Positions 32,201 to 60,100 of a stretch of DNA of 64,000 bases are shown piece by piece (position 1 is the stretch's first letter; each line of letters opens with the position of its first letter). The notes below the pieces were generated by a model that saw nothing but the letters and a program-made list of their open reading frames with translations, was not told where the DNA came from and searched no databases. Location: contig NC_058501.1 of the NCBI RefSeq assembly GCF_020382885.2, positions 18,410,001 to 18,474,000 of the forward strand, read 5' to 3'. Made by a program: the position numbers and the translations under genes. Source of the stretch: Scatophagus argus. Lineage: Eukaryota; Chordata; Actinopteri; Scatophagidae.

Positions 32201-32406
32201 AATATTGCTACTTCTTAGTCATGTAAAATACCTGAGCACTTTTTCAAACACTTTTCCTCTATGCAGGCACGGTTGACAGTAACTGGGTGGTTGGGGCAAC
32301 CCTAGAAAAGAAACTGGTGCCACTGCCTCTCACACTGGCCTTAGGAGCTTTCCTCAACCATCGCAAGAACAAGTTCCAGTGTGGCTTTGGTGTCACCATT
32401 GGCTAG
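29201..32406 (+). CDS. tomm40: Mitochondrial import receptor subunit TOM40
   Basis: Eight coding exons: 29201-29411, 29592-29752, 30103-30204, 30331-30436, 31012-31134, 31276-31352, 31691-31793, 32267-32406. They encode 340 residues in frame (human 361). TOM40 is the beta-barrel pore of the outer-membrane TOM complex through which nearly all nuclear-encoded mitochondrial proteins enter. The first 57 residues are Ala/Pro/Ser-rich, as in human but shorter. The barrel begins near [19 protein letters not shown]. Family strings seen include [34 protein letters not shown] and [17 protein letters not shown]. The protein ends [11 protein letters not shown], the C-terminal beta-signal for SAM-complex insertion (human KFQCGFGLTIG). 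The ATG at 29201 opens the first long frame after the exon 2 acceptor. Confidence 0.97.
29895..29956 (+). mobile_element. LINE 3' tail (Rex1-like)
   Basis: GTGAATTTCCCCCAGTGCGG and then repeated CTTAT/TATCT units resemble the 3' end of a Rex1/CR1-like fish LINE. It lies in a tomm40 intron. Only the tail is present. Confidence 0.5.
32060..32240. repeat. Teleost ACTTTTACTT-type repeat
   Basis: AGTAGTACTTTTACTTTTAG, then TGTACTTAAG and TACTGTAATATTGCTACTT, resembles an abundant fish intron repeat. A related fragment in inverse orientation is at 37560-37680. It lies in the last tomm40 intron. Confidence 0.4.
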
Positions 32407-32753: not shown

Positions 32754-33149
32754 TGTGATTACTTTTTGTAAAATTGGATGTTGTTATTGCTTATAGAGGA
32801 ACTGGGTGCAAAGTTCAAAACACCTATCAGTGAAGTATAATGTAGCCCAATGTAATGCCCATGCAATAGTGCTTCACATGTGAATCTCATCCTGGGTAGT
32901 CTTTACTGAGACTGTCAAAGTGATGCTGATTCAACTGTCCCCTCCACCCAGCATACAAAATAACACAGCTTACACTATATTACCATCCTGAAAATACCAC
33001 CAAGTTTCCCCTCCTCACAAATAACCACAATATAAAGCTGCTATAATCAGTAGTTTTACTAACAAGTGATTAAATAAAAAGGGTAGCACATCCTAAATTT
33101 TCAAGTGAAGAAAGACAAAAAGAAAATCCACATTTTACTTTTATTTGGC

Positions 33150-33216
33150 TTACAAAAAAGATAAATTCTTACACGTCTTGGCGCAGTCTTTTCTTCAGAG
33201 TGTCAAAATGCTGAAA
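33150..33216 (-). other. Possible terminal exon of an unknown minus-strand gene
   Basis: On the minus strand a pyrimidine tract and TTTCAG end at 33217. They are followed by 13 codons (HFDTLKKRLRQDV), a stop, and an AATAAA about 20 nt later. This combination looks like a last coding exon with its poly(A) signal. I recognise neither the peptide nor a preceding exon, and the CACTG element begins 334 bp upstream. It may be chance. Confidence 0.25.
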
Positions 33217-34227
33217 CCAAACAGAAGTGAAAAGTGAACATTTTGACTTGGAAATATAAGACATGTTATCTAATAATATATTTTTAAATATTCTCGCTGG
33301 ATTTTGGCTTTAGCATTCTACTGAGAAGCTTAATGTTGAAGCACAATCTCTTTTCTGATTGATTTAATTAACTGACTAAGCATAGTGCGAAAGGGGCCAC
33401 AGATTGATGAATCATGATTGATGATACAGCATGCAGCTATTCTCAGTAAAACACTGACAGGACCACTTAGTGCTACTTAACTTAGTGGGGTCCAAAACCA
33501 GACCGATGAAAACAGTGAACAAATGAATGCTAATATTTTTCATCTGCTGCACTGAAAAAAAGAATAGTTGGACCACATTAAACGAACTGCTTCAATTGGT
33601 AACAAGCAATTGAACCGAGTTTATCCAACTTAATTTTAAAGTTATATTAACTCTGCTGATTCAGATCAGATATACTTAAATATTTGATTTTTTTTTTCAA
33701 ATGAAATGTCTGCAGTGCTTCAACTCAATTGTAAAGAAAGTCAATTTAAATTCTTTACTTTTTCCAACTTAAGTATTTGCCTCATTCAAAAATATATTCT
33801 TTACAACCTAAAATCACGGCTTCAAAGAATGCAATTTTTGTTGTAATGGCAATGCATAAAGATAGTTTGTAAATTATATGAAAAATACTATCTGGATGAT
33901 TACAAATTTATATCAGACACAAAACTGCATTTTGTTACTTTGTTAACTTTGCAATTGGCAGCAACTTTTGCACCAAAAAGTAAACAATCATCCCAACAAT
34001 GCGTAACCAAATGTCAGCATTTTCTTATCAGTAACTGCTCTTGCTTAAGAGTCAAGTGCTATGTAACTTTTTGTTTCAAAAAACCTGAAAAGGAAAATCT
34101 CTCAAATTGAGGGAAACACTTTTTATACTTGAAACCTATTAAGATTGTGTGAAAGGTATTTATCCCCCTGGTACAAGCAAAGGGCAACATCCAAAGAGGC
34201 TCAAAAGGGTCCATATTCAAACACAGT

Positions 34228-35097
34228 CTACAATGTGGGACAGATCTTAGAAGATCTCTGAACTTTGTGGGACATTTTGTGTGGCTCAAGCTGCATGAAC
34301 ACTTTCTGGAACACTTCAAAAATGTAGAGGCTTTAGATAAGCTAGGTTGAGTATGTACACCAAACCTAGAAGAAGAGCACAAGCTGAGGCGACTGAAGTC
34401 AGGTCATGCAACACCTCCACTCCCTCGATGACAATGCCAATGTCTGCTGGAGGCTCTTGCAGTCCTTCCGATTAACAAGCACTGCTATGGTAAGATGCTC
34501 CACGTCCCTCTGGACATCTTCGGCACTGCTGTCCTAAAGTAGAGTACACAGCACAAACAAAAAGTCACTTTTCTACACAATTACCTGAAATAAATGCCCT
34601 GTGTGTAGACTGAGAGAGAAATACAACTCATGATAAGACAAGTCAAAATATTAAGATGCAAGGATGAGTCATGATGAAGGGCAAGACATTTATATAGTCT
34701 GATGATTTTCTAATGAACTATTTAGACATGTTTTGAACGTTAAATTATGCAAGTGTGCAATCCCACTAACGTCTCTACTGTGTCACTTGGACTTCTGGCA
34801 CATCCTCATATTTGATATTAGTGTAGAATAAGGCTGCTGCTTTTCACTAAGCCAGCAATCTTTTATCCCAATCCACTATACTTTCACAGTTTCTCAGATA
34901 ATGCTGTTAGCCAATCAGCATGGCTGTTAAATGGCAGTTAAGTGCTAAATAAATAACATACAAATAACCAATCTGTTGTTTATTTGAAAAGGTGAGAAAC
35001 TTACAACATTTTGACGAATAAGGTCAACTGCATTTTCTCCCAAGAAGACAATGAGAGCTTTCAGGACACATTCCCTCTGAAGATGGATGTCATCAGC
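34228..35097 (-). pseudogene. 3' part of an uncharacterised multicopy teleost protein gene
   Basis: Two minus-strand exons. The first, 35005-35097, is framed by CAG and GTAAGT and encodes 31 residues starting ADDIHLQRECVLKALIVFLG. The second runs from 34533 (after TTTAG) to a stop at 34228-34230 and starts DSSAEDVQRDVEHLTIAVLV. From recall, teleost genomes hold many copies of a protein whose C-terminus contains GIILEGAVV, LFGLTYALHLDYPK and a final VQ-LK helix. Here GIVIEGVEVLHDL, LLGLVYILNLAYLK and EVFQKVFMQLE align with these, but two single-base frame changes (near 34470 and near 34345) separate the blocks, so this copy looks dead. N-terminal exons were not found; inserts occupy the place where they would lie. 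Function of the family is unknown to me. Confidence 0.5.
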
Positions 35098-35109
35098 CTG
35101 GAACAACAT

Positions 35110-35341
35110 TATCATCATTAAGCCTGTGAATATTCTCATTCATCCAGGTCATGGTTATCTCAAGGAAATTCAATCGAATGCAACTGGACTTAGTTATTGG
35201 TCTTTGAAGACGTTTCACCTCTTATCCAAGAGGCTTCATCAGTTCATGCTCGCTTGACTAGGCTGGGACTAGTCCCTAAACGTCTTCAAAGACAAATAAC
35301 TAAGTCCAGTTGCATTCGATTGAATTTCCTTGAGATTATCA
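35110..35341. mobile_element. Penelope-like tail in palindromic arrangement
   Basis: The text from 35115 is the reverse complement of the 3' tail seen at about 59990-60095 (CCAGTTGCATTCGATTGAA, ATGACCTGGATGAATGAGAA). At about 35281 the same tail starts again in plus orientation. Arms of roughly 60 bp (35147-35207 and 35281-35341) therefore face each other, separated by about 73 bp with the GAAGCCTCTTGGAT-type core. It lies within the CACTG element next to the broken gene's exon. Confidence 0.55.
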
Positions 35342-35719
35342 TCATTACTATTTTTCCAAATTTCCTAATACATGTATCCAGTGGCGAATGGTGCTGAAAT
35401 TGATTGGGTGGGGAAACAAATAGATTATAGCCACAGTGTTCACAGTAAGAGGCCGCATCACATTCTGGCTCCATTAACACAGGTGGATGCCATTCTAACC
35501 TGCCAATGTGTCCACAGGGTATTTAAGACTTGGTCTTAAGACTTGTCCTAATCCAGCTGTCATTACCAGTCTTGTGCAGTAGATAGACATTTTATGATCG
35601 TAACATGAATAAATACACAGGGTGAGAACAACTGGATATTTAACATTTAAACTTGGAAAGTTGGAAGCAACAAAATGTCATATTCAACACAACATCTCTT
35701 GTAACATATAAAACATCAC

Positions 35720-36440
35720 ATCACATTGGACTTAAACTGTCAGAATATTGAAAAGGCATAGGTGTGTGTGCGGCCGGGGGGGGCATTCGGCTTCACCTGA
35801 TCGGCGCTCTGGGTGGGAGGCGTGCGGTCGCGGGCAGAGCGACCAACTGATCCAAACATTTTTGCCCGACACGTCGCGCGATCTTTCTTATGCTAGCGAT
35901 GTGCCGAGGCTAAAAAAGGTTGGGAAACACCGGCTTAGATCAATTTAGCGTGTCAGCGAGACACAGGCAACGCACCCCCCGCATTCAACATTCACGGTGG
36001 TCGTAATTTAAAACAAACCTTTTCACATCCACGTGTTACGAAAAAATTGCGATGTCTGGTGCGGATAAAAGACATACTACACAATAGGGATATCAAGCTT
36101 TCAACATTCATTAATGCATTTAAAAACGGCGGACTGAACGTACATAAGTAAAATAGGCATAGGCAAACCCTTTGGCTCCGGCGTTGATCTTCCTTTAATT
36201 ATTACCTCCTGATTGGATTGAAAATTCAGTTTAGAAAACTGTTTGAGTTTAGATATGTAATCCTCCATTTTGAAAGTAAGGCCAGACGAGAGGAAAAAAA
36301 TAAACGGAAGGCTGCACTTGACTTGCTAACTCTAGATTGTAGCTTGTTTTCACTTATTCTGCAGTCGAGGAGTCGCAAGATGAATCCCTGGGATCACGAG
36401 TGCCCCCTACCATGAGGCAGGAGAACTGCATGCCTCACCT
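35720..36440. repeat. GC-rich nested insert of unknown class
   Basis: The composition shifts abruptly to CG-rich text (GGCCGGGGGGGGC, CACGTCGCGCGATC) within A/T-rich surroundings. A phrase AAAAAGGTTGGGAAACACCG resembles words seen near ends of some hAT-like repeats. I could not find both ends or a coding region. It probably explains why 5' exons of the broken gene are missing. Confidence 0.3.
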
Positions 36441-37002
36441 AGTGCCTTTTCACGGCTGTTTTATGATTGCTCAATATAAGAAACACGTTACACACATACA
36501 GTTGTTGACAAAAAACACTGTACATTATATAACCAGCTAAACTATGGAAATTCAGTTCATATAGCAAAAATGTTTGAACATTTTAATAGCTACGTACAGA
36601 GAGAGAGCAATATGGTCTCACTGCCTAGCATGCCAGCAGTTAGCCGAGTCATTGCGCAGTCATTTGCTGCCTCACCGCACGTCTTTTCTCAGTATTTGAA
36701 CGGTAAATGTGACAATTCAGCGACTTTTAATAAAAGAGAATTAAAACTGTTGAAGTTAAATGGAAAACCATTTATTTTTTCATTTTACATTTCTTTCCGT
36801 GATGACAGGTGAGGTACGGCCTCTCCTGCCTCCCTTGAATGCATGTCACTTAACTTGCTAACGGTAGCTTGCTGTCTTGTCCTGGCTCTTTTCCAATAAT
36901 AAATGGAACAACGTTGAACTATTTGACATGAATCCGGCTACATCATGTCACATGTAATATCAAGCCAAAGCGTAATTAATTCATTTTGTCTTATACTTAC
37001 CG

Positions 37003-37145
37003 TTTCTCAAGTTTCCGCAGCAGCTAAGTCCTCCGACAACAAAAAGGCGGTCAACTCCCATCAGAAAAACCTGCTGGACGTGAGGACACTGGACGTGAAA
37101 CGTCTGTCGTGGTGACGTGTGACGCGATGACATCAGGGGCAAACA
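37003..37145 (-). promoter_or_regulatory. Candidate first exon and promoter of the element-borne gene
   Basis: Read on the minus strand, a CG-containing stretch (TCATCGCGTCACACGTCACC) runs to a strong splice donor (AACG followed by GTAAGT) just inside the right end of the CACTG element. It has the orientation expected for the first, untranslated exon of the gene broken at 34228-35097. No expression evidence. Confidence 0.3.
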
Positions 37146-37296
37146 GGTGCAAAAGCTAAAATTTTGCACAAATTATAATTGCAAGTTGATTAAACTCACA
37201 AAAGTGGATTGTCATAAATAAAGTAGAAAGCTGATTGAAATTAATTCAAAACATAACTTTACTTCAACTACAGCTCAAAAACTCTTTTTTTCAGTG

Positions 37297-38803
37297 TGGG
37301 TAAATGAAGCCAAACAAGTTTGGCATAAGTGAAGGTAATAATGTCAGTGTTGTGTGTATGGCTTGTTTCTGCTGACCCCAATTTATCATTATTTTTAGAT
37401 CTGTCAATGCTAGTTTAATCAACGCGAACACTTTTACGACTGCTGAGACTGAGAGAGAGAGACCTGAATGCCATCTTTGTTTATGCTTGGTCTGAGTAAG
37501 TAGTGGTATTTGAAACTTTAAGTCAAAGTACCAATACAACAATTTGAAAACACCCCAGGCCAAGTAAAAGTCCTGCATTCTTACTTAAGTAGAAGTGCAA
37601 GAGTATTGGTGACAGCTAAGGAGTAAAAGTTTCAGTATTTCTCTCAAACGTAGTCGAGTAGAATCAAATTATTATAAAATGGAGACTTGCTCATGTACAG
37701 TATGGTAGATGTTCTTATTACATTCTTTCACTGGGATAAAATGGTGTGTTTGAATACTTGACACTGACCTGATATTCTGATCATCTTGCTTCAGCTTATG
37801 GCGGATATAATTTTCACGTCGAGTCACTGCTGTCAGCCCTCCATGACGCTAGTCGTCAGTCAGCACTGGGCACATCAGCCTCCAGTCTCAAAACCAGATC
37901 TTCTTGTGAGCCTTGCTCAGCTTGGGACTTTAGTTGAGACTGTGATGACACTCTGTCATCAGGCTGGCATGTATATTGTGACTGGCTGATTCTTTTCAGT
38001 TGATGTTTGCACACTGTTTGTTTGTGTTTGTGTCAACCTCCTGTAACTATGAGGCTGTCTGGGCAGAGTTTTTGTTTTGGCGTCTGCTGACATTAACTAT
38101 GAGATTATTGTGGTGGTTGACACATTTTTGGGAGGCTTGGGTATTAGTATTATTGCAAATTGTTGATTAATGGATTGATTTAGCTATTAGCCTGTTAATT
38201 AATGGCTGTAGTCTCCATAAATACAAAAAAATTCTTTGAAAAGTATTTATTTTAAAAGCATCAGAAAATTCCATACTTCAAGATCCCTGACAATAGACCA
38301 CCACTTTTTGAAAAGATTTATCCTCACAATAAAATCAAAATACTAATAAGCAACATCTGATGACCAGAAACAAAACCATGGAAAGGTTGATGTGAAAAGA
38401 AAAGACTGAAATGAGTCTTTTTTTTTCACATCAACCTTTCCTTTTTGAAAACCAGTTACAAAGCAAAGTATTTCTTTAAAGGACGACAGTACTATAAGAG
38501 ATCAAACAAAAACGTCCAAATTCATGACTAACGCTAAAAAGATAATCCAAATATATCTTGTCACAACAAGAAAAATATAGCCACACCATGTGTTTATTCG
38601 TCTTTATGCTGCCATAAGTTGTGACTCAGAAAATACCCGAATATAGAGTATCTTCCAATATTTATTTACCAATTGCACTATTGTCTTTTTATTGGTTGAT
38701 TATATAGGTAGTGAAACAAGAAATGAAATTTAGTAAAAATTGAAAACTGCTCAATTACTCAAATTTTCTGGCCCTGTCCAAGTGTAGATGGGAGGTGACA
38801 CAT
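37297..38803. other. Stretch without recognised genes left of meprin copy A
   Basis: Holds a fish ACTTAAGTAGAAGTGCAAG-type repeat (37560-37680) and the left edge of the duplicated meprin unit, which is recognisable from about 38060 by its match to 46060 onward. It also holds an 18-bp inverted repeat (38380-38398 with 38424-38442). Possible minus-strand poly(A) signal for copy A at 38661-38666 (TTTATT on plus). A 68-codon plus-strand frame at 37786 is unrecognised. Confidence 0.4.
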
Positions 38804-41800
38804 TCAAGGTAACAAAAGCATCAGTGCCAGCAGGAGGGTGAGGACAGGTGAAGCCACCGAAGCAGGTGAGAAGCCAAAAATGCTGCAGCAGGAACAAAGG
38901 AAGGGATTAAATAAAATGATAGACAACAATGAGTTTTGGCACATGCCTAACAGTGGCCTGAAAATAGACCCTTAGTTACAAAGCTTGTTGTGGTAGAAAC
39001 AGAAAGTTTACGTAACTAATTAACCTAAACAGCGTCAAACTAGGCTTTTCAAGCCTACTGCATTTACAGCTAACAAATTATTACAACTGTAAAATATGTG
39101 AGTAAATTTGTCTACCTGCCATCCGTTGTTTGAGGAGGTGGAAGGACGGTGGTGGTGGGTAAGATCCTGTAAAATGAACGGTGCCATTTGAAAAATCTTA
39201 CAGTGGTGCTAAAATCGACATCTTTATCATATTTTAAAATGAGGGCTGAAAAAGTACTTAGTTTGATGTCTTACCGTGATGAGCAGGGGGCTCTATCCAT
39301 ATGGGCCGGAGGGCGCACAATCTTCGCTGGGCGGACTTTAGGACATGGTAGAACACTTCCATTGACCAGAGGAGTGAGATCTAGCAAAAGAAAAAAGTAT
39401 CAGTAGAGTTCTACAGCTAATCTTCCCCTCAGGTGTGAAGTGATTCAAACATTTTTGAACAGGTTTGTTGAAACAGAACATCTAAAAGCACATCTCACAG
39501 TAAAAACATGTTTATCGGCCTGCCTTGAAAACTGAAGACGAAAACGGCACTGCCTCCCTTGAGGAACTCTCTGGATTTCAGTTCATCTAGAGATGCAAAA
39601 ACGGCTCTGCCAAGCTGAGGCCCGGCATAGCTGGTCTCATTATTCTCATCTGTAAATGGAGTTCCAACCTTGCGAGGATCATCCCATAAATAGGAACCTT
39701 CACAGAACAAGAAAGGTAAATAACCACAGGGGAAATACTGTTAAAATGGTAGCTTTTCATTTTGTAAAAGGCTTTCTTTAGGTTTTTTTGTTTATGTTAT
39801 CTTACCAGTGCTGGATACGCTTAGGTCACTGGTGATACTCCTTTGCTTGGACATTTGCTGCTGGATGTTGGGGTTCTGGTCCAACATTTGGAATGTGACC
39901 TGCCTTTGTGGGCATGGCCACTCCAGCTGGTCATCATATTTACCAGACAAGAGTTGCACATAGGCTCCAATTTGTGTCTTGTAGAGCAGAATCCCAACCA
40001 AGTAAGAATAGCCCCCTGTGGAGTACTGCCGTGAACTGGATATAGTGGTTCCAAAATCACTAGAACTCAAAAGGTTCTCTAACTCATCGACCTGTATGGT
40101 CACATGTGGACATTCGGTCTCGGACAGATTGATGTCATCAATTGAGAAGCCGCCTGAAGAGTTTCCAGCTCCTTTACGAACCTCAAACTCCACCTGGAAG
40201 TGTGTGGTGGCATTCAGGGAGACATGCTGCAGCTGCCAGTAAGACGTTTGTCGACCTGAAGGAAGAGTTTTGTGATGACTAAATTGCTCGTATATTAATG
40301 AGTGCATGTGCAGCTTTCAAATATTCACAGTTCATCAGTTTTCAATCCCAAATGTCAAACAAATTATACCAGATAATTATTTGGCTTCATATTACCAGTG
40401 ATCTGGTCAACCAGGCGGCGGGTTCCTGTATTGTCCCATTCATCTTGAAACTCTCTGATCCAGATGTTGAGCTGGTCCGATGGACTCCCACTATGGTAAT
40501 AGTAGAACTGGAGACACTGGACATGACACTCCTGAGTGACACTCATCCTCTTGATCTCCAGCCAGGCCAAGTCTCCCTCTCGACCTGATGCTGTGCTAGC
40601 ATGCATGAAGTAACCTGGTTGTTCACCTAAAATGTTGTAGTTCAACATTAATGTGTGTTATATGAATTTACGTGAGATTTACAATTTTCCAAAAGGTATT
40701 TGTCCCATTTAAAAGTTATGACAAACTTCCTCTTTTTGGACAAATTGATCTAAATGTCAAGATATAGAGGACTGTTATTCAATTTTATTTTCACTTATTG
40801 TTTTCTTTTTGGGTGGGTGGGGGGGTATTTTACCCTTTTTTAAGATATCTGACAGTTGAAAGATGACAAGAAATGACGGGAAAGAAAGAGGGAGCAGTGA
40901 ATACTGTTGGCTGAAAGGGAACAGGGAATACTGTTGTTCATGGACACCGAGCATAGCACCACAATCATTTCATTAACAATAAACAACTCCAAAATTTTAA
41001 TTTTGAAATCCTACCATGATAACTACTATTACCACTGGGCAGTGTGGTGTGGTCAGAGCTGGGACCCCCGTTAACTTGTGTTACCATTTCCCAGCCAGGG
41101 CCTCCGTCTGAACAGCGATTCATTTGACACATGGACCCCTCAGAGAAGCCGCAGTACATCTTAAATGTGATAGTCGAGTCTGTAGAAGTAAATGAAGAAC
41201 AAGGTTGAGGATTGTTACAAGAGCTGTGGAATTAAAGCTTCTCAGATTATTAAAGTCTATAGAAGGTGTGTTATAACTGCAATTCAAGCATAGGGTGTAC
41301 GTCGTGATGTATTTTGTTCTTTATGATATTATTAATAAGGTTGGCTATACTTTACTTTCTTTGTTTCATTATGACTTTTTTTCATTTAGTACACACAGGT
41401 ATAGAGACGATTCCAAAAATGTTCATGTGCTAGAAATACTGCTGACACAATGACTTGACAGTTTTAGTAAGTGAAACAAACAATCCCAAAACATTCTTAC
41501 AGGTAGGTGGTGGCCCCTTTAAATTCAAACCACTTACTGCATTTGTAGAGGAGGTTCAGTTCCAGGACATCACTGGGACTCACTTCCAGTCTCTGACCAA
41601 TAATATCCTGAAATTTTGGATCTTTGGTGATCAGTGTCGACCCATTGCCATTGCTGAATGCATTTTGTCTGTAGTGCATAACTGACCAGAAGTCGTATGC
41701 AACTCCGTTGGTGGTGCTGTCTTCACTGCTAACTTTGTCAAAGTTAGACTCCCTACCTAAATGACACATACAAAAGCAATGATCAACTACAGCATATTGT

Positions 41801-44371
41801 AGTGGTTAAAGTATAATTCTCTTGTTATTGAATACATAATAAAATCTAACTCAGCCCATCATTTAAACAAAAGGAGTCAGTCTTGTACACATTGATCTTT
41901 TGCCATACCAAGCCATAAAGTAAGTAAACATTGAACCAACACAAACCCTAATTAAGATATTAAGAAATTGTTTCTAGGAATATTGTATCTATTAATGGTT
42001 TAGGCATTAATAAATGTATTTTTATAAAAGTTTGTTAAACTGCCTGAATTTGTAAATACTTTTGATAATCCTGTTTTGGGGTCATTACTAAACTGATGCT
42101 GTGTACCTATGTTTGCGCTTCAACACCTTAAAAAAAAAAAAGTCTTAATTAAACCTTCTTGGATGTTCTCAAATATGACGGTCACATAATTATCTCTGTC
42201 ATATCTGGACTGTTCATGGAAGAAGCCAAGAGCATGGAGGAACTCATGTTCAACAGTGGAAATCTCATCACAGAACCTCCCGATGGAGAGTTGCTGTCCG
42301 TTGGGTTGTGATTTCCCAATATATGAAAAACATCTAGAACACAAAAAGCACTCATCAGTAACAGTCACTTTTATATATTAATATCATGCTTTCCCATTTG
42401 TCAAAGTCTGTGAGTAGGAATGGTCTGTATGACCAAGAGTGTTTATATATGGCCAAGCACATTATGTCTGAATGTTTAACGTAAAGTTAGTTGTTGTGTG
42501 CATAAGTATGAAAAGAGAAAGATAAAGATGAAAAACATTGAAAACAAAACATAAAGAAAACAAATACAATACATACCCATCTAACTTTTGGACAGAAATG
42601 TAATAGTCCTCAGAGTCCCTTTGTTTGAAGTCAATGCATGACTTCAGCCTGAATTGCTCAAAAGCTCTCAGGATGACTCCTTTAGCATTCATCTCTTCCG
42701 TTGTTTGTAAGAGTTGTATTACAGGGACAAACAAAGAAATGGCAATTTAAACACTTTAATATGAGGTAATCCTGCTTGGACATTATTTGAGGCACTACTC
42801 TCATTAGATACTAATCAGCTTCAGGTAAAGTTCAAGATCAGTAGAGCGTTGTTCACTTCCACATGCTGATCATTGTCTCTAAATCTTGCTAAGACAAAGA
42901 TCTCCTACTTAAAGAGCCGACATATTATGCACAATCATATTTACCAAGGCTTTTTTCCAAAACATATGGCACTGGGGATGTCCATAGATTGTTGGCATCA
43001 ACAATGGCACTCCTTTGTATGTTTGGTGGCTAAGATATATAAGAAATATTTTGGGTGACACAAGAAATTCTGTACATGTACATGCATGTTTGTCATTTTG
43101 ATATTTTACTACAGAAATGCTAAACTCACCTTCAGAATGTCATCAAGTAATGCTCCTAAGATAGAGCACAAAACGTGAGTCTTATTTAACAAAGTAATCA
43201 GTAATACATAATAATGTGAACAACACTGTGAAGCCATAATAAAGTTACTCTGTCATATGCAAACAATACCACCTCCTGTTATGTTGATTGATGATGATGA
43301 TTAAAATTATTTTTAACTCTTTTTATTTTAAACTTTATTTAACTTTACCATTGTTTGCCTCTGTTATGTCCTTTTCCTCACCAACATCTACAAAACAGAT
43401 GAGAAGCTGCTTTAAAAACTGACACTTGTTGATTAGAAATAATTTTAATTAATTTTAGGTAATAAAATTAAGAATATTAAATAGTGCAACTTACTCACTA
43501 TTGCTGTTCCATTCTGTAAAAAAAAAAAAATCATATTTGATCACTTCAACATACAAAATGATGTAACTGTCAGATTTATAACATGAAATACAAGTAACCA
43601 CATGACTGTTTTATATTTGTTGTTCATTGATCAGCATTCATTACTTCTCTACTTGCTGATCAATCTGTAAAACGTACTCAGAGTTGAAGTTTAAAGTCAG
43701 ATGGTTGCTGTGTGTTTCCATGATTCCACAGTTTATCAAATGTGTCTTAATAGTTTTAAGTTCAAATTTCAGATTTAATACTGCATTAAGCTATTGTTAA
43801 TGAAATTTTTTAAGATAATATAATCTTTTACTGATTTGGGTGTTACGGCAGCACAAGGACAGAATGAGTATAGGTAAATGTATGAAAAAGTAAATAAATA
43901 ATTAACCTCAAAATCAAAATTAATTAATTCTTTAGTGCGACTCAGCCATTGTTGGCTGTGTGTCTGAGGGGAATGAGACGGAGTACAGGTCACTCATCGT
44001 GGATTACTTTGTAAATTGTTAATTTATTTTACCTCTATATTTTTTTGTAACTGTTTTTGCACACTTTTTGCACTCTTTTTCTGTTCTTGTGAGCTGCCAC
44101 GACAAGTGAATTTCCCCACTGCGGGATCAATAAAATTCATCTTATCTTATCTGTTATCTTATCTTAAACTAGGAACAGAACATCAGAAACTCAACATTAT
44201 AGGCAATACCATAGATTAGAAAATCAATGGCATTTTATTTTAAGTGTAGCGTGAAATACATCACAGTTTGACTGAACGTACAAAATTAATGACTTCTGCC
44301 TTACTTACTGGTTTTATGAAGAAAGCTGACAAGACCGCCAAATTCACAGCAAGGAAAACAAGGCTTGTCAT
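38804..44371 (-). CDS. mep1b: Meprin-beta-like metalloprotease, copy A
   Basis: Fifteen minus-strand exons: 44305-44371, 43499-43513, 43349-43387, 43130-43155, 42945-43029, 42577-42694, 42155-42333, 41538-41756, 41015-41179, 40396-40626, 39806-40255, 39524-39697, 39275-39380, 39116-39166, 38804-38882. They give 667 residues (human MEP1B 701) in an unbroken frame. Meprins are secreted or surface zinc endopeptidases that process matrix, cytokine and mucin substrates. Domains: signal peptide (MTSLVFLAVNLAVLSAFF); short propeptide; astacin domain with zinc motif [12 protein letters not shown] (146-157) and Met-turn SVMHY (201-205), all ligands present; MAM (about 250-430, SIDDINLSE); MATH (about 432-589); Thr/Pro stalk; hydrophobic C-terminus from 642. 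No EGF domain or cytoplasmic tail is seen. The exon 12 donor is GC (see findings). Exon 2 is only 15 nt. MEP1B rather than MEP1A is favoured by the SIDDINLSE and WPCP strings. Confidence 0.9.
43885..44168 (+). mobile_element. LINE 3' tail (Rex1-like) in copy A intron 1
   Basis: Contains TTTTTGCACTCTTTTTCTG, GTGAATTTCCCCACTGCGGG, AATAAAATTCATCTTATCTT and repeated TTATC units, the signature of a Rex1-like LINE 3' end. The matching intron of copy B (about 52600-52680) lacks it, so it inserted after the A/B duplication or was lost from B. Confidence 0.6.
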
Positions 44372-44486
44372 CCTCGTTGTGTGGACCAAACTTAAATAAT
44401 ACGACAGGAATGAAAACACATGAGAAATTCAAAGCTAGATATGCTTTTAAAGAAGTGCAATTAAGCTACTATGCATTTAAATACTC

Positions 44487-44560
44487 ACCTGTGTTAACCG
44501 TCTTCTAGCCTGTGTGTCTCTCATATGAGAGACTACAGCTGTGACACAAGAGTGTTATGC
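44487..44560 (-). promoter_or_regulatory. Copy A untranslated exon and promoter
   Basis: On the minus strand a leader ends GGTTAACACAG before GTGAGT at about 44488. The ATG exon acceptor (TTTAAG) lies at about 44396. At the position where copy B has TATAAA, copy A reads CATAACAC (about 44553-44560), so the TATA box looks lost. Confidence 0.45.
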
Positions 44561-45785
44561 AGGTATGATAATGTCCCGTCGGAAAACAGGTTTTCGCACC
44601 ATAGAGAATAGCAATCATTCATGTCACGTCAATGTTTCCAGTGCTGTCAAGACAAAAATCTTTTTCATTGTCAGGACCTTTGCCGGTGCAGGCCACGCCA
44701 GGTTGTCATCAGAAGGATTTTGAAAATTCTTTTACTGCCAGAGAACAGCAGATAAATTTAGATTTGACTGTCTTGCTGTGTTACTTAATCTCTGGGTTAA
44801 CTCCTGCTCTTGCCAGCAATGCACACTACCCAGACAAGTTAAACATTCTGCAAACTACTTAGCATAAGCCAGTCTTTACCTTTTGTCTAATTTTAACATA
44901 CTATTATTGAGAGCATGTCTGAATAAAAGCTTTTTTATTTTGTGCACCTCCAGCAGATTAAATGAAGAATAAACACAAGAGAAATGTCTACTTCCATGTA
45001 TGTGGCATGTGTATGTGTGTGAGGTTGTACTGAACAGTCATCATGCTAACATACTCAACAAAACAAAGATAGTAACGAGCTGATATTTATTAGGCATACT
45101 GCTTAAGATGTTCATTAACATGTTAGCTTGCTATTTGCTAATTAGCACTAAACAAAACTACAGATGAGGCTGAAGAGTTTTTTTCAGTCATTTGTTCATA
45201 AGTATTAACTATTGGACAAATTACAATTTTGACTCGATGATAGTGCTCAGAAGAAATGTCAGTCATTCAACAAAATGAAAGTCATTGTCACATTTCATGA
45301 CATTCTATGGAAAAATTATCAGAACCACAACATGTGAACCTCATGATGGCGCCAGAGAAAAAGTCAGGTCAAAAAAACACCCCGAAAAACATCACAATCT
45401 GTGGGATTCACACTCTGGAGACCATCAACATTTGTACATAATATCACAGAAATCCTTCCAACTCCACTTGTGTATATATTTGGATACATACTGCCTTGAT
45501 GATGATAGAGATGATGAAAATATTATGGAGATCCTAATATATATTTTCAAACTGGAGGAATGGGAAGAATAATTAATAATATTTGTTGGAGAGTTTCTAT
45601 ATAAGGAGAGCCTTGGAGGTGGACAACACATTGCTCCCAGGAAGTTATTCCTCCATGTGGATGAGAGTAACTGTTTCATATGTTTATCAGATATGTTATA
45701 CTTTTTTTCCCTAAACCTATGGCATATGAGTCAGCAGTATGATGCAGCAGGATGATTTAGAAGTGGAAGGAAATTTTATGCACGA
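44561..45785. other. Intergenic part of the first duplicated unit
   Basis: No gene. It matches 53040-54125 in scattered blocks, for example AGGAAGTTATTCCTC at about 45640 and 53840, and AGTGGAAGGAAATTTTATGCAC at about 45762 and 54103. A TTAGC-rich fish repeat lies at 45020-45170. The 95-codon plus frame at 45285 is not recognised. Confidence 0.5.
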
Positions 45786-45937
45786 TCGCAGATAACTATC
45801 GTAGTCATTACTTGTCAACAGTCTCTCAAAGTCACTAATTTGGCAGACTCAATGTGGACATTCAGAATTAGATAGAATGATGTCATCAATGGAAAAGCCT
45901 CCTGAAGACTCTTCATTTCTTTTACGCACCTCAAACA
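45786..45937 (-). pseudogene. Relic of a C-type meprin MAM/MATH exon
   Basis: On the minus strand this matches copy C at about 55489-55640 almost base for base, including the shared CTCCTGAAGACTCTTCATTT block on the plus strand. It spans the end of the MAM domain ([11 protein letters not shown]) and the start of MATH. No neighbouring meprin exons remain. It abuts an L2-type tail at 45938-45992. Confidence 0.75.
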
Positions 45938-45992: not shown

Positions 45993-46139
45993 AAATTCCA
46001 TATTATTATGAAATACATTTTGAATTATTAACATTGATGCATTTATATTATTTTATATATGAGAGTTTTTGATTTGGTGTCTGCTGGAATTAACTGTGAG
46101 ATTATTGTGGTGGTTGACCAATTTCTGGGTCTCATGTTC

Positions 46140-46565
46140 AAGAAATGAAGTTAAGTTTATTTAATCAGTCTTTGTCTCATGTCTGTGTTGTCTTGTGATT
46201 TCCTGCTTTATTTTGTCACTACTTCCTGTCTGTGTCTAGTCTGACATTAGCTTTGATTTTTCCCTTTGTCTGTTTTCCCTCCTTTGGGATTACCTGTCTT
46301 CACCCTGATTGTTGCCAGCCCTCGTCTCTCTTTGTCCTGTGGCAGTTCGCCTTTCCATTGTGTCCATGCCATTGCCATTGCCATTGCTAGGGTCAGGTCA
46401 TGTTATTTTGTTACTTTGCTAGCCTAGCTTCAGTCTAGTGAGTTTTTGTTTCTTAGTTTTGTGTAGGTTTTTTCCTCTTTGAAGAGAGATTTTCAGTTTG
46501 TACTTTTTTGAATAAAAACTTTATTTTGAGAGTCGTGCGTTTGGGTTCTGGTCCACAGTTCAGTC
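46140..46565 (+). repeat. Dispersed repeat, possibly a solo LTR fossil
   Basis: Starts near TGTCTCATGTCTGTGTTGTC and ends near AATAAAAACTTTATTTTGAG and TCGTGACA. It has T-rich internal text and a poly(A) signal, the look of a fish terminal-repeat fossil. There is no coding content. Copy A's flank lacks it at the equivalent place (about 38120), so it arrived after the duplication. The family is not determined. Confidence 0.35.
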
Positions 46566-47411
46566 GTGACACTGGGAGCAGCATCTGCTTTAGGATTATT
46601 TCAAGTTGTTGTTGTCTTGAATTTCCCTCGGGATCAATCTATGTATCTCGTTCAATGGAATGATTTAGCTATTAGCTTGTTAATTAATGACTGTAGTCTC
46701 CATAAATACTAAAAACAAGTCTTGCTTTGAAAAGAATTTATTTTAAAAGCTTAAAAAAAATTCCATACTACAACCCTGAACCCTGAAATCAGACCAACAC
46801 TTTTTGAAAAGACCTAAAATCAATAAATCACAATAAAATCAATATACTTAAGAGCAACATCTGATGACCAGAAACAAAACCATATCGTTTTTCTTTCATT
46901 TTCAATTATGCTTTTCCTGTGAATCAAGAACTGCCATACTGGGTTGGCTATAAAATTCCATGTCCTGCTTTTAGCCTACAGTATATAAACATTCTCAATA
47001 CATGAAATTAAGGGCTCACATCAACCTTTCCTTTTTGAAAACCAGTTAGAAAGCATTTCTTCAAAGGATGACAGTACTATAAAAGATCAAACAAAAAAAT
47101 GTGCAATTTTAGACTAGAAATTGATTAAATCACAATTATACAGATATATACTGTCACAATAAGAAAAGTATAAGCATAGTATGACAGGCATATGTCAATT
47201 TCTTATTCTGCTTTAGGTTGTGTCGCCGAAAATACCCTGCTATACGGTATCCTCCAGTAGTTATACCACCGTTCCCTTTTTATTAGTTCATATAAGCAGT
47301 GAAACCAGAAAACAAATGAGTAAAAAATATAAAACTTAGTTACTCAGCCAGCGGCAAATTTGCTGGCCCGGTCCATATTCAGAGGTGAGATGTGTGTGTG
47401 ACATGACACAT

Positions 47412-50400
47412 TCAAGGTAACAAAAGCATCAGTGCCAGCAGGAGGGTGAGGAGAGAAGAAGCCAACGAAGCAGGTGAGAAGACAAAATTGCTGCAGCAGG
47501 AACAAGGGAATGGATTAAATAAAATAATAAACAACAAGTTTTGGCACATGCCTAGCAGTGGCCTGGAAAAAGACCCTTACCACAATTAGTTGCAAAGCTT
47601 GTTCTGGTTTATGTAACTAACTAGCCTAAACAGTGTCAAACTGTATTTACAGCTAACAAATTACTCAAAATTAATGTGCGGAAATCTGTTTACCTGCTGT
47701 CCGTTACAGTTGGAATGGGGGTGGTGGGTAAGATCCTGTAAAATGAATGGTGCCATTTGAAAAATCTTAAGCCAGTGCTAAAATTGACATCTTTATCATA
47801 TTTTAAAGTGAAGGCTGAAAATGTACTTAGTTTGATAACAAAATGTCTCACCGTGGTGAGCAGGGGGCTCTATCCATATGGGCTGGAGGATTCACCATCT
47901 TCGCTGGGCGGACTTTAGGACATGGTAGAACACTTCCATTGACCAGAGGAGTGAGATCTAGCAAAAGAAAAAAGTATCAGTAGAGTTCTACAGCTAATCT
48001 TCCCCTCAGGTGTGAAGTGATTCAAACATTTTTGAACAGGTTTGTTGAAACAGAACATCTACAAGCACATCTCACAGTAAAAACATGTTTATCGGCCTGC
48101 CTTGAAAACTGAAGACGAAAACGGCACTGCCTCCCTTGAGGAACTCTCTGGATTTCAGTTCATCTAGAGATGCAAAAATGGCTCTGCCAAGCTGAGGCCC
48201 GGCATAGCTGGTCTCATTATTCTCATCTGTAAATGGAGTTCCAACCTTACGAGGATCATCCCATAAATAGGAACCTTCACAGAACAAGAAAGGTAAATAA
48301 CCACAGCGGAAATACTGTTAAAATGGTAGCTTTTCATTTTGTAAAAGGCTTTCTTTAGGTTTTTTTTGTTTATGTTATCTTACCAGTGCTGGATACGCTT
48401 AGGTCACTGGTGATACTCCTTTGCTTGGACATTTGCTGCTGGATGTTGGGGTTCTGGTCCAACATTTGGAATGTGACCTGCCTTTGTGGGCATGGCCACT
48501 CCAGCTGGTCATCATATTTACCAGACAAGAGTTGCACATAGGCTCCAATTTGTGTCTTGTAGAGCAGAATCCCAACCAAGTAAGAATAGCCCCCTGTGGA
48601 GTACTGCCGTGAACTGGATATAGTGGTTCCAAAATCACTAGCATTCAAAAGGTTCTCTAACTCATCGACCTGTATGGTCACATGTGGACATTCGGTCTCG
48701 GACAGATTGATGTCATCAATTGAGAAGCCGCCTGAAGAGTTTCCAGCTCCTTTACGAACCTCAAACTCCACCTGGAAGTGTGTGGTGGCATTCAGGGAGA
48801 CATGCTGCAGCTGCCAGTAAGACGTTTGTCGACCTGAAGGAAGAGTTTTGTGATGACTAAATTGCTCGTATATTAATGGGTGCATGTGCAGCTTTCAAAT
48901 ATTCACAGTTCATCAGTTTTCAATCCCAAATGTCAAACAAATTATACCAGATAATTATTTGGCTTCATATTACCAGTGATCTGGTCAACCAGGCGGCGGG
49001 TTCCTGTATCGTCCAAGTCATCTTGAAACTCTCTGATCCAGATGTTGAGCTGGTCCGATGGACTCCCACTATGGTAATAGTAGAACTGGAGACACTGGAC
49101 ATGACACTCCTGAGTGACACTCATCACCTTGGTCTCCAGCCAGGCCAAGTCTCCCTCTTGACCTGATGCTGTACTAGCATGCATGAAGTAACCTGGTTGT
49201 TCACCTACAATGTTGTAGTCCAACATTAATTAGAATCAGAAAATCCTTTATTTATCCCCAAGGGGAAATTCTTTTTTTTATGTGTGTTTTATGAATTTAT
49301 GTAAGATTTACAATTTTCCAAAAGGTATTTGTCCCATTTAAATGTTATGACAAATTTGTCGTGTTGAGACATGTTTTCTGTTATCCATTTTTGTTTTTTG
49401 TTTTTTAAAAAAAAAAAAAAAATTGGGGCGGCGAGGTACCCTTTTTTTTATAGATATCTGACAGTTGAAAGAAATTAGGGGAAAGAAAGAGGGGTCAGGG
49501 AATATTGTTGGCTGAAAGGGAACAATAGGGAATATAGTTGTTCATGGACACCAACCGCGGCACCACAATCATTTTAGTAACAATAAACAACTTCAATATT
49601 TTGTTCTCAATATTTTAACATTAAAAAGAGAATCTTACCATGATAACTACTATTACCACCGGGCAGTGTGGTGTGGTCAGAGCTGGGAGTCCCGTTAACT
49701 TGTGTTACCATTTCCCAGCCAGGGCCTCCGTCTGAACAGCGATTCATTTGACACATGGACCCATCAGAAAAGCCGCAGTACATCTTAAATGTGATAGTCG
49801 AGTCTGTAGAAGTAAATGAAGAACAAGATTGAGGATTGTTACAAGAGCTGTGGAATCAAAGCTTCTCAGATTATTAAAGTCTATAGAAGGTGTGTTATAA
49901 CTGCAATTCAAGCATAGGGTGTACGTCGTGATGTATTTTGATCTTTATGATTTTATCAATACGGTTGGCTGTACCCTACTTTGTTTGTTTCATTATGACT
50001 TTTGTTTCATTTAGTATACACACGTACACAACAGTTTCCAAAAAATGTTCCTATGTTAGAAATACTGCTGACACAATGACTTGACAGTTTTAGTCAGTGA
50101 AACAAACAATCCCAAAACATTCTTACAGGTAGGTGGTGGCCCCTTTAAATTCAAACCACTTACTGCATTTGTAGAGGAGGTTCAGTTCCAGAATGTCACT
50201 GGGGCTCACTTCCAGTCTCTGACCAATAATATCCTGGAATTCTGGATCTTTGGTGATCAGTGTCAGCCCTATGCCATTGCTGAATGCATTTTTGCTGTAG
50301 TGCATAACTGACCAGAAGTCATATGCGACTCCGTTGGTGGTGCTGTCTTCGCTGCTAACTTTTGCAAAGTTAGACTCCCTACCTAAATGACACACAAAAG

Positions 50401-52858
50401 CAATGATCAGCTACAGTATATTGTAATGGTCAAAGTGTAATTCACTAATTTTTGAATAGACAACAATCTAATCTGACTTAGCCTATCATTTAAAACTATT
50501 TAAAACTAATAAAAATAATACATATAATAAATGCTTTTATAGAATATTATATCTGTTAATGGTTTAGGCATTAATAAATGTATTTTTATATAAGATTATT
50601 AAACTGACTGATAATGAAACTGAATTTATAAATACTTTTGATAATCCTGTTTTTAGACAATTGCTAAACTGATGCTGTGTCCCTATGTATGCACCTCAAC
50701 ACCTTAAAAAGGTTAAAAAGCCTTAATAAACCTTCTTGGATGTTCTCAAATATGACGGTCACATAATTATCTCTGTCATATCTGGACTGTTCATGGAAGA
50801 AGCCAAGAGCATGGAGGAACTCATGTTCAACAGTGGAAATCCCATCACAGAACCTCCCGATGGAGAGTTGCTGTCCGTTGGGTTGTGATTTCCCAACATA
50901 TGAAAAACATCTAGAACACAAAAAGCACTCATCAGTAACAGTCACTTTTATATATTAATGTCTTGCTTTGTCATTTATCAAAGCATGTGAAGAGGAATGT
51001 CTGTGAGTAGCAATGGTCTGCTTTTGCAAGATTTGTTTTTATATTTGTCAAGCAAGTATGCATACAACTTCACACTGAGAACAATGCTAAATCTCACCCG
51101 TTCAACAGTCATCTGCTTGCGTATGTATAGGCTCGTTTATATACAGAAATGCCCCCCAGAATGTCACATATGGCCAAACACATTATGTCACAATGTCTTA
51201 ATGGCCCTGATATATAGTTAGTTGTTATGGAAAAAAGTATGATAAAAAGATGAAAGACATAGAAAATTAGAAAGACAAAACAAATACAATACATACCCAT
51301 CTAACTTTTGGACAGAAATGTAATATTCCTCAGAGTCCCTTTGTTTGAAGTCAATGCATGACTTCAGCCTGAATTGCTCGAAAGCTCTCAGGATGACTCC
51401 TTTAGCATTCATCTCTTCCGTTGTTTGTAAGAGTTGTATTACAGGGACAAACAAAGAAATGGCAATTTAAACACTTTAATATGAGGTAATCCTGCTTGGA
51501 CATTATTTGAGGCACTACTCTCATTAGATACTAATCAGCTTCAGGTAAAGTTCAAGATCAGTGGAGCGTTGTTCACTTCCACATGCTGATCATTTTCTCT
51601 AAATCTTGCTAAGACAAAGATCTCCTACTTAAATTAATATTGTGCACAATCATATTTACCAAGGCTTTTTTCCAAAACATATGGTACTGGGGATGTCCAT
51701 AGATTGTTGGCATCAACAATGGCACTCCTTTGTATGTTTGGTGGCTAAGATATATAAGAAATATTTTGGGTGACACAAGAAATTCATACATGCATGTTTG
51801 TCATTTTGATATTTTACTACAAAAATGCTAAACTCACCTCCAGAATGTCATCAGTTAATGATCCTAAGATAGAGCATAAAAAGTGAGTCTTATTTAACAA
51901 AGAAATCAGTAATATGTAATGATGTGAACAACTCCATGAAGCCATAATAAAGTTACTCTGTCATATACAAACAATACCACCTCCAGTTACATTGATGATG
52001 ATGATGATTAAAATATTTAACTTTACCATTGTTTGCCTCCGTTATGTCCTTTTCCTCACCAATATCTACAAAACAGATGAGAAGCTGCTTTAAAAACCAA
52101 CAGTTATTGATACGTCGATACGTGTGCAGCCTGTTACAGACGCTCCCGATCTTTCTCACTGTTTTCTACTATTTTATTATTATTTCGCGACTCCTTTTCT
52201 GATTAATTTTAAAATTTTTAGAAATTCAAATTAAGAATATTAAATAGTACAACTTACTCACTATTGCTGTTCCATTCTGTAAAAAAAAAAAAATCATATT
52301 TGATCACTTCAACATAATTGTCACATGTAACATGAAATACAAAAAAACCACAAGACTGTTTTATATTTGTTGTTCATTGATCAGCATTCATTACTTCTCT
52401 ACTTGCTGATCAATCTGTAAAACGTACTCAGAGTTGAAGTTTAAAGTCAGATGGTTGCTGTGTGTTTCCATGATTCCACAGTTTATCAAACGTGTCTTAA
52501 TAGTTTTATGTTCAAATTTCAGAATAAATATTACATTAAGCTATTGTTAATGAAATTTTTAAGATAATATAATCTTTTAATAATTTAGGTGTTACAGCAG
52601 CACAAGGACAGAATAAGTATATAAAAAATAAATGAATAAATAATGGAGTGTGCATAAAATAGGAATAGAACATCAGAAACTCAAAATCACAGGCAATACC
52701 ATAGACTTGAAAATCAATGGTAGTATATTCGAAGTGTAGCGTGAAATACATCACAGTTTGATCATACAAAAATTAATGACTTCTGCCTTACTTACTGGCT
52801 TTATGAAGAAAGCTGACAAGACCGCCAAATTCACAGCAAGGAAAACAAGGCTTGTCAT
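47412..52858 (-). CDS. mep1b: Meprin-beta-like metalloprotease, copy B
   Basis: Fifteen minus-strand exons matching copy A one for one: 52792-52858, 52262-52276, 52027-52065, 51838-51863, 51660-51744, 51297-51414, 50732-50910, 50164-50382, 49639-49803, 48974-49204, 48384-48833, 48101-48274, 47852-47957, 47694-47735, 47412-47490. They give 664 residues. It differs from A by three codons fewer in exon 14 and by scattered substitutions, for example CDGISTVEH against CDEISTVEH just before the zinc motif. The astacin ligands ([17 protein letters not shown]), MAM, MATH and the C-terminal hydrophobic tail (SLLTLLLALMLLLP) are all present. It has a TATA box that A lacks. Both copies appear intact, so two near-identical secreted or surface proteases are expected. 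Confidence 0.9.
49231..49277 (-). mobile_element. Short LINE tail insert in copy B intron 9
   Basis: TTAGAATCAGAAAATCCTTT and ATTTATCCCCAAGGGGAAAT read as the inverse of the common fish LINE tail that ends in a GAATTTCCCC-type block. Copy A lacks it at about 40649, which marks it as younger than the duplication. Confidence 0.5.
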
Positions 52859-52974
52859 CCTCGTTGTGTGGACCAAACCTAAATCATACGACAGGAATGA
52901 AAACGCATGAGAAATGCAAAGCGAGATATGCTTTTAAAGAAGTGCAATGAAGCTGCTATGCATTTAAATATTCA

Positions 52975-53046
52975 CCTGTGTTAACCGTCTTCTAGCCTGT
53001 GTGTCTCTCATATGAGACACAGCTGTGACAGGAGGTTTATATGCAG
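52975..53046 (-). promoter_or_regulatory. Copy B untranslated exon and TATA box
   Basis: Minus-strand TATAAA (53036-53041 on plus as TTTATA) lies about 30 bp before a leader that ends GGTTAACACAG at a donor near 52980. The leader shares the CTCATATGAGA palindrome with copy A. Confidence 0.55.
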
Positions 53047-54248
53047 GTATGATGTCCCGTCAGAAAACAGGTTTTAACATTTCAGGGAATCATAATTAAG
53101 TCATTGTCACAATGGTGTTGAGTGATGGTTCTTTCGGTTCCCTTGCCAAGATAAAATTTCTTCTCATTGTCTCACTCTGTCAGTGGAATTCATATCAGAT
53201 CAGATTACATCAGATTTGAGTGTCTTGTAATATTGTAATATTATTTCAACCCACAGTCAACTCTTGCTCTCTGTTAGGCAGTAACACACTGTCCCCGGAC
53301 AAGTTAAATGATTTTAAACGTTCTGTAAACTACTTAGCACAGACCAGTCTTTAACTTGAGGCTAATATTATAATTATAATATTATTATAATATTAACACT
53401 AACATTTCCTCTGAGCACCATCACCAGGTCAAAACTGCATTATATTATATTATATTATAATATAATATAATATTATTATTATATTATAATAATAATATTA
53501 TTATAATACTATTGAGAGCTTGTCTGAATGAAGGTTGTTTTGTGCACCTATGGCAGACTAGAGAAGAGTCTACTGCCATGCCAATAGGGGATGTCAGCAT
53601 GGCAACATGCTCAAAGTGAAGATGCTAAGCTGATGTTTACTGGCCTGACTGCTTAACATGTTCATTAACATGTTAGTCTGCTGACATCTGCTAATTAGCA
53701 CTAAACAAAACTACAGATGAAGCTGAAGGGTTTTTTTTCAGTTAGTTCATAAATATTTGACAAATTGCAGTTCTGTTCTCTATTTGTATGAGAGTTTCTG
53801 CAGAAGGAGAACCTCAGAGGTGGACAGCACAATGCTTCCAGGAAGTTATTCCTCTATGTAGATGAGAGTAACTCTCTCATGCACTTATCAAATGTCTTAT
53901 AGAAGTATGAAAGTTTTTTTTGTTCTTCTGTGTTGAATGGTTTATTGTTTGCTTTGCTTTGTATTACATTCTACTTAATTCCCATTTGATTTTATAAAAA
54001 ATAAATAAATAAAAAACTTCACCTTTATGTTTTCACTGTTGTGGAATTTTTACTCTGCAGTGTCACAGCTCCAAAGGGATTTTTGAGTCAGCGGTTTGAT
54101 CAACAAGTGGAAGGAAATTTTATGCACACTTACAGTGAGAACATGTAACACACACAAAATACTGAAAATCTGAAATATCTGTTTACGACTGATTTAGTTT
54201 GTTTTAGTAATTCCATATAACAATTTGAATCATACAAATCTTTTGGCT
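53047..54248. other. Intergenic part of the second duplicated unit
   Basis: No gene. It includes an A/T-rich palindrome (53440-53508) and a TTAGC-type fish repeat (53580-53730). The stretch that copy A's flank matches ends at about 54125. Confidence 0.5.
53440..53508. repeat. TTATA/ATAAT self-complementary repeat
   Basis: Alternating TATTATAT and ATAATATA units form a long A/T-only palindrome able to extrude a cruciform. Smaller runs of the same kind lie at 53365-53395. Confidence 0.8.
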
Positions 54249-59599: not shown

Positions 59600-60100
59600 A
59601 CGAGCTGCACTGTCTTTGTTTTTTTTCACATAGAAGTCATCTATATGAAATTAAAAAACCATCTCTCAACAGAGGAGGAGGTCTGAGACACCACCTATCT
59701 CTAATTTACAATGCTGCCCTTTCATCTCTTCCCAGGAGATTCAACAACTTAGCCTCTTAGAACAACTGCCATTCACAAAGGGCCCCATGTGACTCGACGA
59801 CTGTCGACTGAAACCAACTTTACCATCCCCCAACGACTGTCGTTTGGCACAATGGGGCACTACACGAGCCTATGACACCACTGGCCATGTGAATGCCTCC
59901 ACAGAGGTTAAATACCTGGGTCTCCACACCAGCTAGTTGGACTAGTCCCAGCCTAGTCAAGCGAGCATGAACTGATGAAGCCTCTTGGATGAGAGGTGAA
60001 ATGTCTTCAAAGAGAAATAACTAAGTCCAGTTGCATTCGATTGAACTTCCTTGAGATAACCATGACCTGGATGAATGAGAATATTCACAGGCTTATGTGG
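59600..60100 (+). mobile_element. Penelope-like retroelement 3' fragment
   Basis: A frame at 59640-59758 encodes KKPSLNRGGGLRHHLS and YNAALSSLPRRFN, which I recall as the C-terminal end of the GIY-YIG endonuclease part of fish Penelope-like elements. It is followed by the tail with AGCCTCTTGGATGAGAGGTG and CCATGACCTGGATGAATGAG. Only the 3' end is present. The same tail forms the palindrome at 35110-35341. Confidence 0.55.

Follow-up and report, generated by a model that had tools for sequence, protein, structure and literature searches.

A probable deletion derivative of a two-gene transposon of EnSpm/CACTA-like type in the genome of Scatophagus argus

The window considered here, a stretch of 64,000 bp (C9:18410001-18474000) of the 570.7-Mb assembly of the fish Scatophagus argus (G000), which is also the genome used for all family searches, contains between positions 33550 and 37296 an element, hereafter W, that is very probably the dead remnant, shortened by internal deletion, of a two-gene cut-and-paste transposon of EnSpm/CACTA-like type. 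The "host-like gene" that an initial annotation had recognized inside this element most likely represents, judging from sequence comparisons, neither a host gene nor cargo but the second gene of the transposon itself (open reading frame 2, ORF2), the first (ORF1) being that of the putative transposase. The premises of this reading, which the comparisons establish, are the ends of the element, its target duplications, an unbroken target site in the case of one copy, the order of the two genes and the conservation of both proteins.

The features of W, in window positions, are as follows.

33548..33549, no strand: target duplication TG, left copy (flank comparison)
33550..37296, minus strand: whole element copy, probable internally deleted CACTA-like transposon; 3747 bp, exact termini, both ends aligning to the C19 ends
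33550..33563, plus strand: left terminal inverted repeat CACTGAAAAAAAGA, exact; homologous left ends in K16 and K19
34229..34533, minus strand: predicted last coding exon of ORF2, with two frameshifts; 74-81% protein identity to the C16 and C19 copies
35005..35097, minus strand: predicted penultimate coding exon of ORF2, phase 0; 31 open codons
35121..35334, no strand: palindromic repeat, a later insertion; 13-bp direct repeats at 35108-35120 and 35335-35347, absent from K16 and K19
35762..36851, no strand: interior without C19 match; 36072-36155 matches K16 (89%)
37001..37140, minus strand: predicted CpG-rich promoter and non-coding first exon, donor GAGAAACG/GTAAGT at 37001 (CpG content, donor score; conserved in C19)
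37283..37296, minus strand: right terminal inverted repeat CACTGAAAAAAAGA, exact reverse complement; homologous right end in K19
37297..37298, no strand: target duplication TG, right copy (flank comparison)

The protein family and its CACTG-type ends

At least 108 stretches of the genome match the coding part of W, this number being a lower bound since 150 of the 167 candidates were scored, and the protein family is indeed multicopy, as the initial annotation had surmised. The 30 best-scoring loci were fetched and, two of them being the window copy, 28 were left for comparison. At 17 of these 28 the homology to near-identical sisters stops no more than 15 bp from a CACTG/CACTC-A-rich terminus on the 3' side of the gene, the termini at the stop points being CACTGAAAAAAA, CACTGATAAAAA or CACTCAAAAAAA and close variants of these. 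The 17 loci identified by such a homology breakpoint belong to six groups of near-identical dispersed copies (L017/18/19/23; L020/21/35; L032/33/34; L024/25; L037/38/39; L029/31), and two further loci, L010 and L011, reach the left end after extension, bringing the total to 19 of 28. Outside this genome, homologues of the coding part were confirmed neither in viral nor in prokaryote contigs. The left end, first exon and palindromic repeat, searched for as DNA patterns, had no match in viral contigs, and the one match in prokaryote contigs was a chance one, lying in a contig with long frames of bacterial type.

Sixteen copies were pursued to their far end and 13 were completed (W, K19, A8, A18, B22, B7, B5, C6, C14, E1, E12, D13 and D15, the right ends of the D copies being read by eye), K16, G2 and G13 remaining incomplete. 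All 13 complete copies have identical 2-bp flanks (TA in nine, TG in three and AA in one) and none has identical 3-bp flanks; their left ends begin with CACTG in every case, their right ends with CACTG in 11 and CACTC in two. The proposal that homologues of the gene should be found between CACTG-A-rich inverted ends bordered by short duplications is supported, both by the 19 loci with an end and by the flanks of the complete copies. These measure 3.7 kb in W, 3.85 kb in C, 4.3 kb in B, 8.0 kb in E, 8.9 kb in D, 9.2-10.0 kb in A and 11.7 kb (11,679 bp) in K19, and within sets A, B, D and E they are at least 99% identical over their length.

When the flanks of the B22 insertion (C22) are rejoined, they match unbroken copies of a repeat, without gaps at the junction, in five alignments of 83-96% identity (L052, L035 twice, L036 and the window itself), so that these sites would fit a 2-bp duplication at an empty site. 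The copy of this repeat in the window occupies 4279-4390 and is 83% identical. The insertion site of C6 (L020+L043), once rejoined, is a palindrome, TTGGAACTAGTTCCAA, which represents a single case.

The two genes and the possible role of the second

In the A, D, E and G copies ORF1 is followed by ORF2 on a single strand, except that G13 retains only a piece of ORF1; the well-preserved copies span 8-10 kb. Counted from the first methionine, ORF1 of the A, D and E copies encodes 887-939 amino acids, and its frame in G2 has 889. A cysteine/histidine pattern resembling C2H2 fingers was read by eye, and it is followed by a domain that, at residues 357-485 of E1 ORF1, the single full ORF1 scanned, gives a sub-threshold match to Transposase_21 (E = 7.4e-4, 19.2 bits). 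Acidic, CxxC and H motifs, which we take to be catalytic, are strongly conserved in the ORF1 of three subfamilies.

ORF2, the family to which the coding exons of W belong, is composed of a PB1-like N-terminus, a conserved centre and a conserved C-terminal domain. PB1 was matched by three of four N-termini (best E = 9.4e-4), one of the members shown lying below the cut-off, while nothing convincing was found in Pfam or PDB for the C-terminal domain. Between subfamilies the non-synonymous divergence (dN) is 0.32-0.44 for ORF1 and 0.48-0.61 for ORF2, the synonymous divergence (dS) being saturated in both cases, and some subfamilies are only ~40% identical in ORF2; within groups the small numbers permit no further statement, the pair C6 v L035 looking near neutral.

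The pairing of the two genes was analysed with 46 of the 140 ORF1 stretches (about one per locus) and 103 of the 108 ORF2 stretches. All nine ORF1 loci whose frames have 888-940 amino acids and match the query at 54% identity or more are followed on the same strand by ORF2, 2.7-4.6 kb farther downstream; these nine loci correspond to five sets of copies, including the query's own. The initial annotation had wavered between a self-serving protein of the element and a gene family spreading as cargo, and the constant position of ORF2 behind ORF1 in the nine loci speaks for the former; the latter is unlikely, the gene being most likely the element's own.

If the CACTA biology outlined in the excerpts of PMC2613891 and PMC1636069 applies here, ORF1 would cut and join the ends of the element. 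ORF2 would play the accessory part that TNPA plays in maize, attaching to the ends or to partners, and would help or regulate transposition, perhaps via the subterminal motif AAGTAAA. This heptamer or its complement occurs 19 times in the 14 ends of seven copies, whereas in 200 shuffles the most frequent 7-mer reached a median of 9 and never more than 12, which makes it a candidate binding site.

Several observations weigh against a two-gene transposon of this kind. As to the ends, nine of the 28 loci (L013, L015, L016, L022, L026, L027, L028, L030 and L036) have no confirmed terminus within the 1.5 kb that was examined without extension, L028 having a CACTG-A motif that is unconfirmed as an end. 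In all five unbroken B22 sites the second duplicated base is C and not G, and the sequence examined for the other 12 copies yielded no convincing unbroken site, the rejoined K19 flanks giving only a 66% match and those of A18 and W matching only their own ends. As to the proteins, the tnp2-type match of ORF1 is under the curated cut-off of Pfam (19.2 vs 28.6 bits) and its zinc-finger Pfam matches are all below cut-off, none having E<=1 in E1 ORF1. An ORF2 on the same strand, no more than 12 kb downstream, is present at 20 of the 46 ORF1 places, and none was detected over this distance at 8 of the 17 ORF1 loci longer than 800 amino acids (33-43% identity). Because no ORF2 is found behind these eight divergent loci, nor in the 5-6 kb read behind two of them, ORF2 appears, at least when searched with the C-terminus of W, a query that diverged members could escape, to be confined to one clade of ORF1 elements. 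Furthermore, W and K19 are close kin and do not count as independent for AAGTAAA.

A further group of long, uninterrupted ORF1 frames, of 815-936 amino acids and 33-43% identity to the query, has no detectable ORF2 behind it. Its loci in G000 are:

C6:14307198; C21:12587784; C11:15117220; C15:6197191
C16:1250048; C16:1319751; C9:4958459; C7:21635519

How ORF2 serves the element is the point on which one alternative differs, ORF2 being in this case a repressor or decoy produced mainly by transposase-less derivatives instead of a helper of transposition. The dispersed elements of sets B and C have no transposase core but retain zinc-finger-like and ORF2 parts, and because many copies of ORF2 have no transposase nearby, regulation or repression exerted in trans competes seriously with the accessory role; on the other hand, at each of the nine well-preserved loci of the clade ORF2 has been kept beside the transposase, and we regard the repressor or decoy as the less likely reading. 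Three 4.3-kb elements on three chromosomes (L017+L040, L018+L041 and L019+L042), which are 99% identical, join a zinc-finger-like exon to the C-terminus of ORF2 without transposase core and could encode a fused protein.

That ORF2 is captured host cargo, extraneous to the transposon machinery, is an improbable alternative: the many copies residing in elements that lack the transposase core (for instance sets B and C and the copy W) and the PB1-like domain, which is also a host-type domain, would be compatible with it, but ORF2 follows ORF1 on the same strand at nine of nine well-preserved loci of the clade and is conserved across subfamilies whose ORF2 are about 40% identical.

The window copy and its surroundings

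The exact 14-bp inverted termini described in the initial annotation are present, CACTGAAAAAAAGA at 33550-33563 having its reverse complement at 37283-37296, and the flanks have TG/TG in common and no repeat longer than 2 bp. The length of this pair, taken alone, proves little, because exact 14-bp inverted pairs 200-8000 bp apart arise by chance at a mean of 2.98 per simulation (40 first-order Markov windows) and 18 are listed in the real window, 10 of which are CA-repeat pairs. The pair becomes remarkable when CACT[A/G] is required at both outer ends, 300-10000 bp apart: the expectation is then 0.01, and a 14/14 pair beginning with CACT[A/G] was obtained in one of 100 third-order simulations. 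Each end of W, when compared with the 10 kb lying inward of it, has the other as its best partner, and beyond the 14 bp the two share no subterminal sequence above the level of random pairs. In the whole genome the exact 14-mer occurs 65 times, compared to 50 for the backwards control, and was rejected as a genome-wide tag, being uninformative by itself; therefore, the finding rests on the protein family. When the list of occurrences was inspected by eye, the only inverted pair within 10 kb in the genome was that of the window; eight places of the 14-mer (L002-L009) were fetched and inspected by eye only.

Both ends of W have counterparts in a single relative: the left (33547-33745) and the right (36852-37306) align with 81-90% identity to the two ends of K19, the 11.7-kb copy on C19, which is bordered by a TA/TA duplication of its own. 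K16 likewise matches W at the left end. Since the two ends of W align to the two ends of one element, it is scarcely credible that they came together by chance or that each stems from a small insertion of its own, the latter being the case set out beforehand as refuting, however common exact 14-bp inverted pairs may be and however little else the two ends share.

The minus-strand transcription unit of the initial annotation was found again as a prediction, with exons at 35097-35005 and 34533-34229 and a CpG-rich first exon with donor at 37001. By a weight matrix of splice-site frequencies this donor ranks 32 of 7626 in the window; the first-exon stretch 37000-37149 contains 11 CpG (observed/expected 1.01), and 35800-35949 is richer (15 CpG, 1.32). 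Promoter, first-exon stretch and donor are conserved in K19. No Pfam or PDB match was found for the coding pieces of W. Opposite positions 35762-36851 of W, C19 has ~5.3 kb in which disrupted pieces of the transposase gene and of N-terminal ORF2 sequence survive, and near its left end K19 has ~4 kb that are lacking in W. From these comparisons W appears to be a dead, internally deleted derivative devoid of ORF1 and of the N-terminal part of ORF2, which by reason of the deletion, the palindromic insertion and the two frameshifts could no longer make either protein.

A related copy of the palindromic repeat is found at 59939-60095 of the window. Within the interior that has no C19 counterpart, 36104-36325 (minus strand) is a fragment that gave no Pfam match and that presumably resembles the N-terminus of a fish hAT/ZMYM-like transposase; a hAT-like insertion with an 8-bp duplication inside W was considered and rejected, its six weak candidates being no better than those of seven control regions. 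The CACTGAAAAAAA end at 33551 (minus strand), read outward, resembles a splice acceptor with 16 pyrimidines and is among the two best of ten such sites listed in 33000-37500, so that ends of this type could splice into neighbouring exons.

In a profile scan of the window, a gene with a Porin_3 domain, presumably tomm40-like, terminates at 32406 and is followed by minus-strand genes with Astacin, MAM and MATH domains, which we take to be meprin-like. The meprin-like region is tandemly duplicated (38065-45936 and 46062-53901, main blocks 86-90% identical), and an older copy lies farther to the right. A possible last exon at 33172-33216 (minus strand), ending in HFDTLKKRLRQDV and having a good acceptor and AATAAA at ~33145, is located outside the element and is perhaps, we presume, part of an apolipoprotein-like gene adjoining tomm40. 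The window has no Rfam match at the gathering threshold.

Affiliation with CACTA elements and significance

The element is best called EnSpm/CACTA-like and would be filed neither in the EnSpm/CACTA nor in the TRC group, because ends, motif and two-protein plan fit, whereas the 3-bp duplication and the CCC ends fail. Compared with EnSpm/CACTA, it has the CACT[A/G]-type ends, the repeated subterminal motif and the second protein, its tnp2 profile match is sub-threshold, and it differs in its duplication (2 bp in 13 of 13 copies, 3 bp in none); compared with the animal TRC group, it has the 2-bp duplication in all 13 copies and CACT instead of CCC at its ends.

As far as the excerpts of the cited papers go, En/Spm and plant CACTA elements (Tgmt*, PMC2613891) resemble the fish element in their CACT-type inverted ends of ~13 bp, their subterminal repeats, a transposase of tnp2 type, to which ORF1 is a putative counterpart by its sub-threshold match, and a second protein, the plant TNPA-like protein binding subterminal motifs. 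Unlike the plant elements, for which, as for fungal EnSpm, a 3-bp target duplication is reported, the fish element has a 2-bp duplication, begins with CACTG and not CACTA, and has a second protein with a PB1-like N-terminus and a C-terminal domain without recognized relative. SmTRC1 and the animal TRC elements, assigned to the CACTA superfamily (PMC1636069), resemble it in Transposase_21, which ORF1 matches below threshold, and share with it 2-bp flanking repeats (reported there in seven of 14 copies) and a second tandem ORF, and the paper mentions tblastn matches in Danio rerio; in contrast to the fish element, TRC ends start with CCC in three species and the inverted repeats of SmTRC1 measure 54 bp. 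The zebrafish EnSpm-N6_DR (PMC3485254), of 346 nucleotides, is like W a non-autonomous fish element of EnSpm type, a likeness that concerns its description in the excerpt and not its terminal letters.

The suggestion of an undescribed element thus held in part: the superfamily is a known one, the transposase lying near EnSpm/CACTA by its sub-threshold profile match, and a link of the ORF2 family to CACTA elements was not encountered among the listed titles and starts of abstracts of open-licence PubMed Central papers, a Repbase entry being possible.

It is conceivable, and proposed here only tentatively, that this large fish protein family constitutes a new class of CACTA accessory protein, with a PB1-like and a conserved C-terminal domain, and that the transposase-less derivatives spread as carriers of a trans-acting regulator. 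If this were true, a large share of the "uncharacterised" proteins in fish proteomes would constitute a transposon control system. On the main reading alone, a multicopy family that neither Pfam nor PDB convincingly matches in its C-terminal domain receives an origin, its genes in this genome being most likely transposon and not host genes. An animal CACTA-like lineage is moreover at hand in which a well-conserved second protein is present in recent, near-identical copies. The role of the second CACTA protein, which is an old question, thereby becomes testable outside plants.

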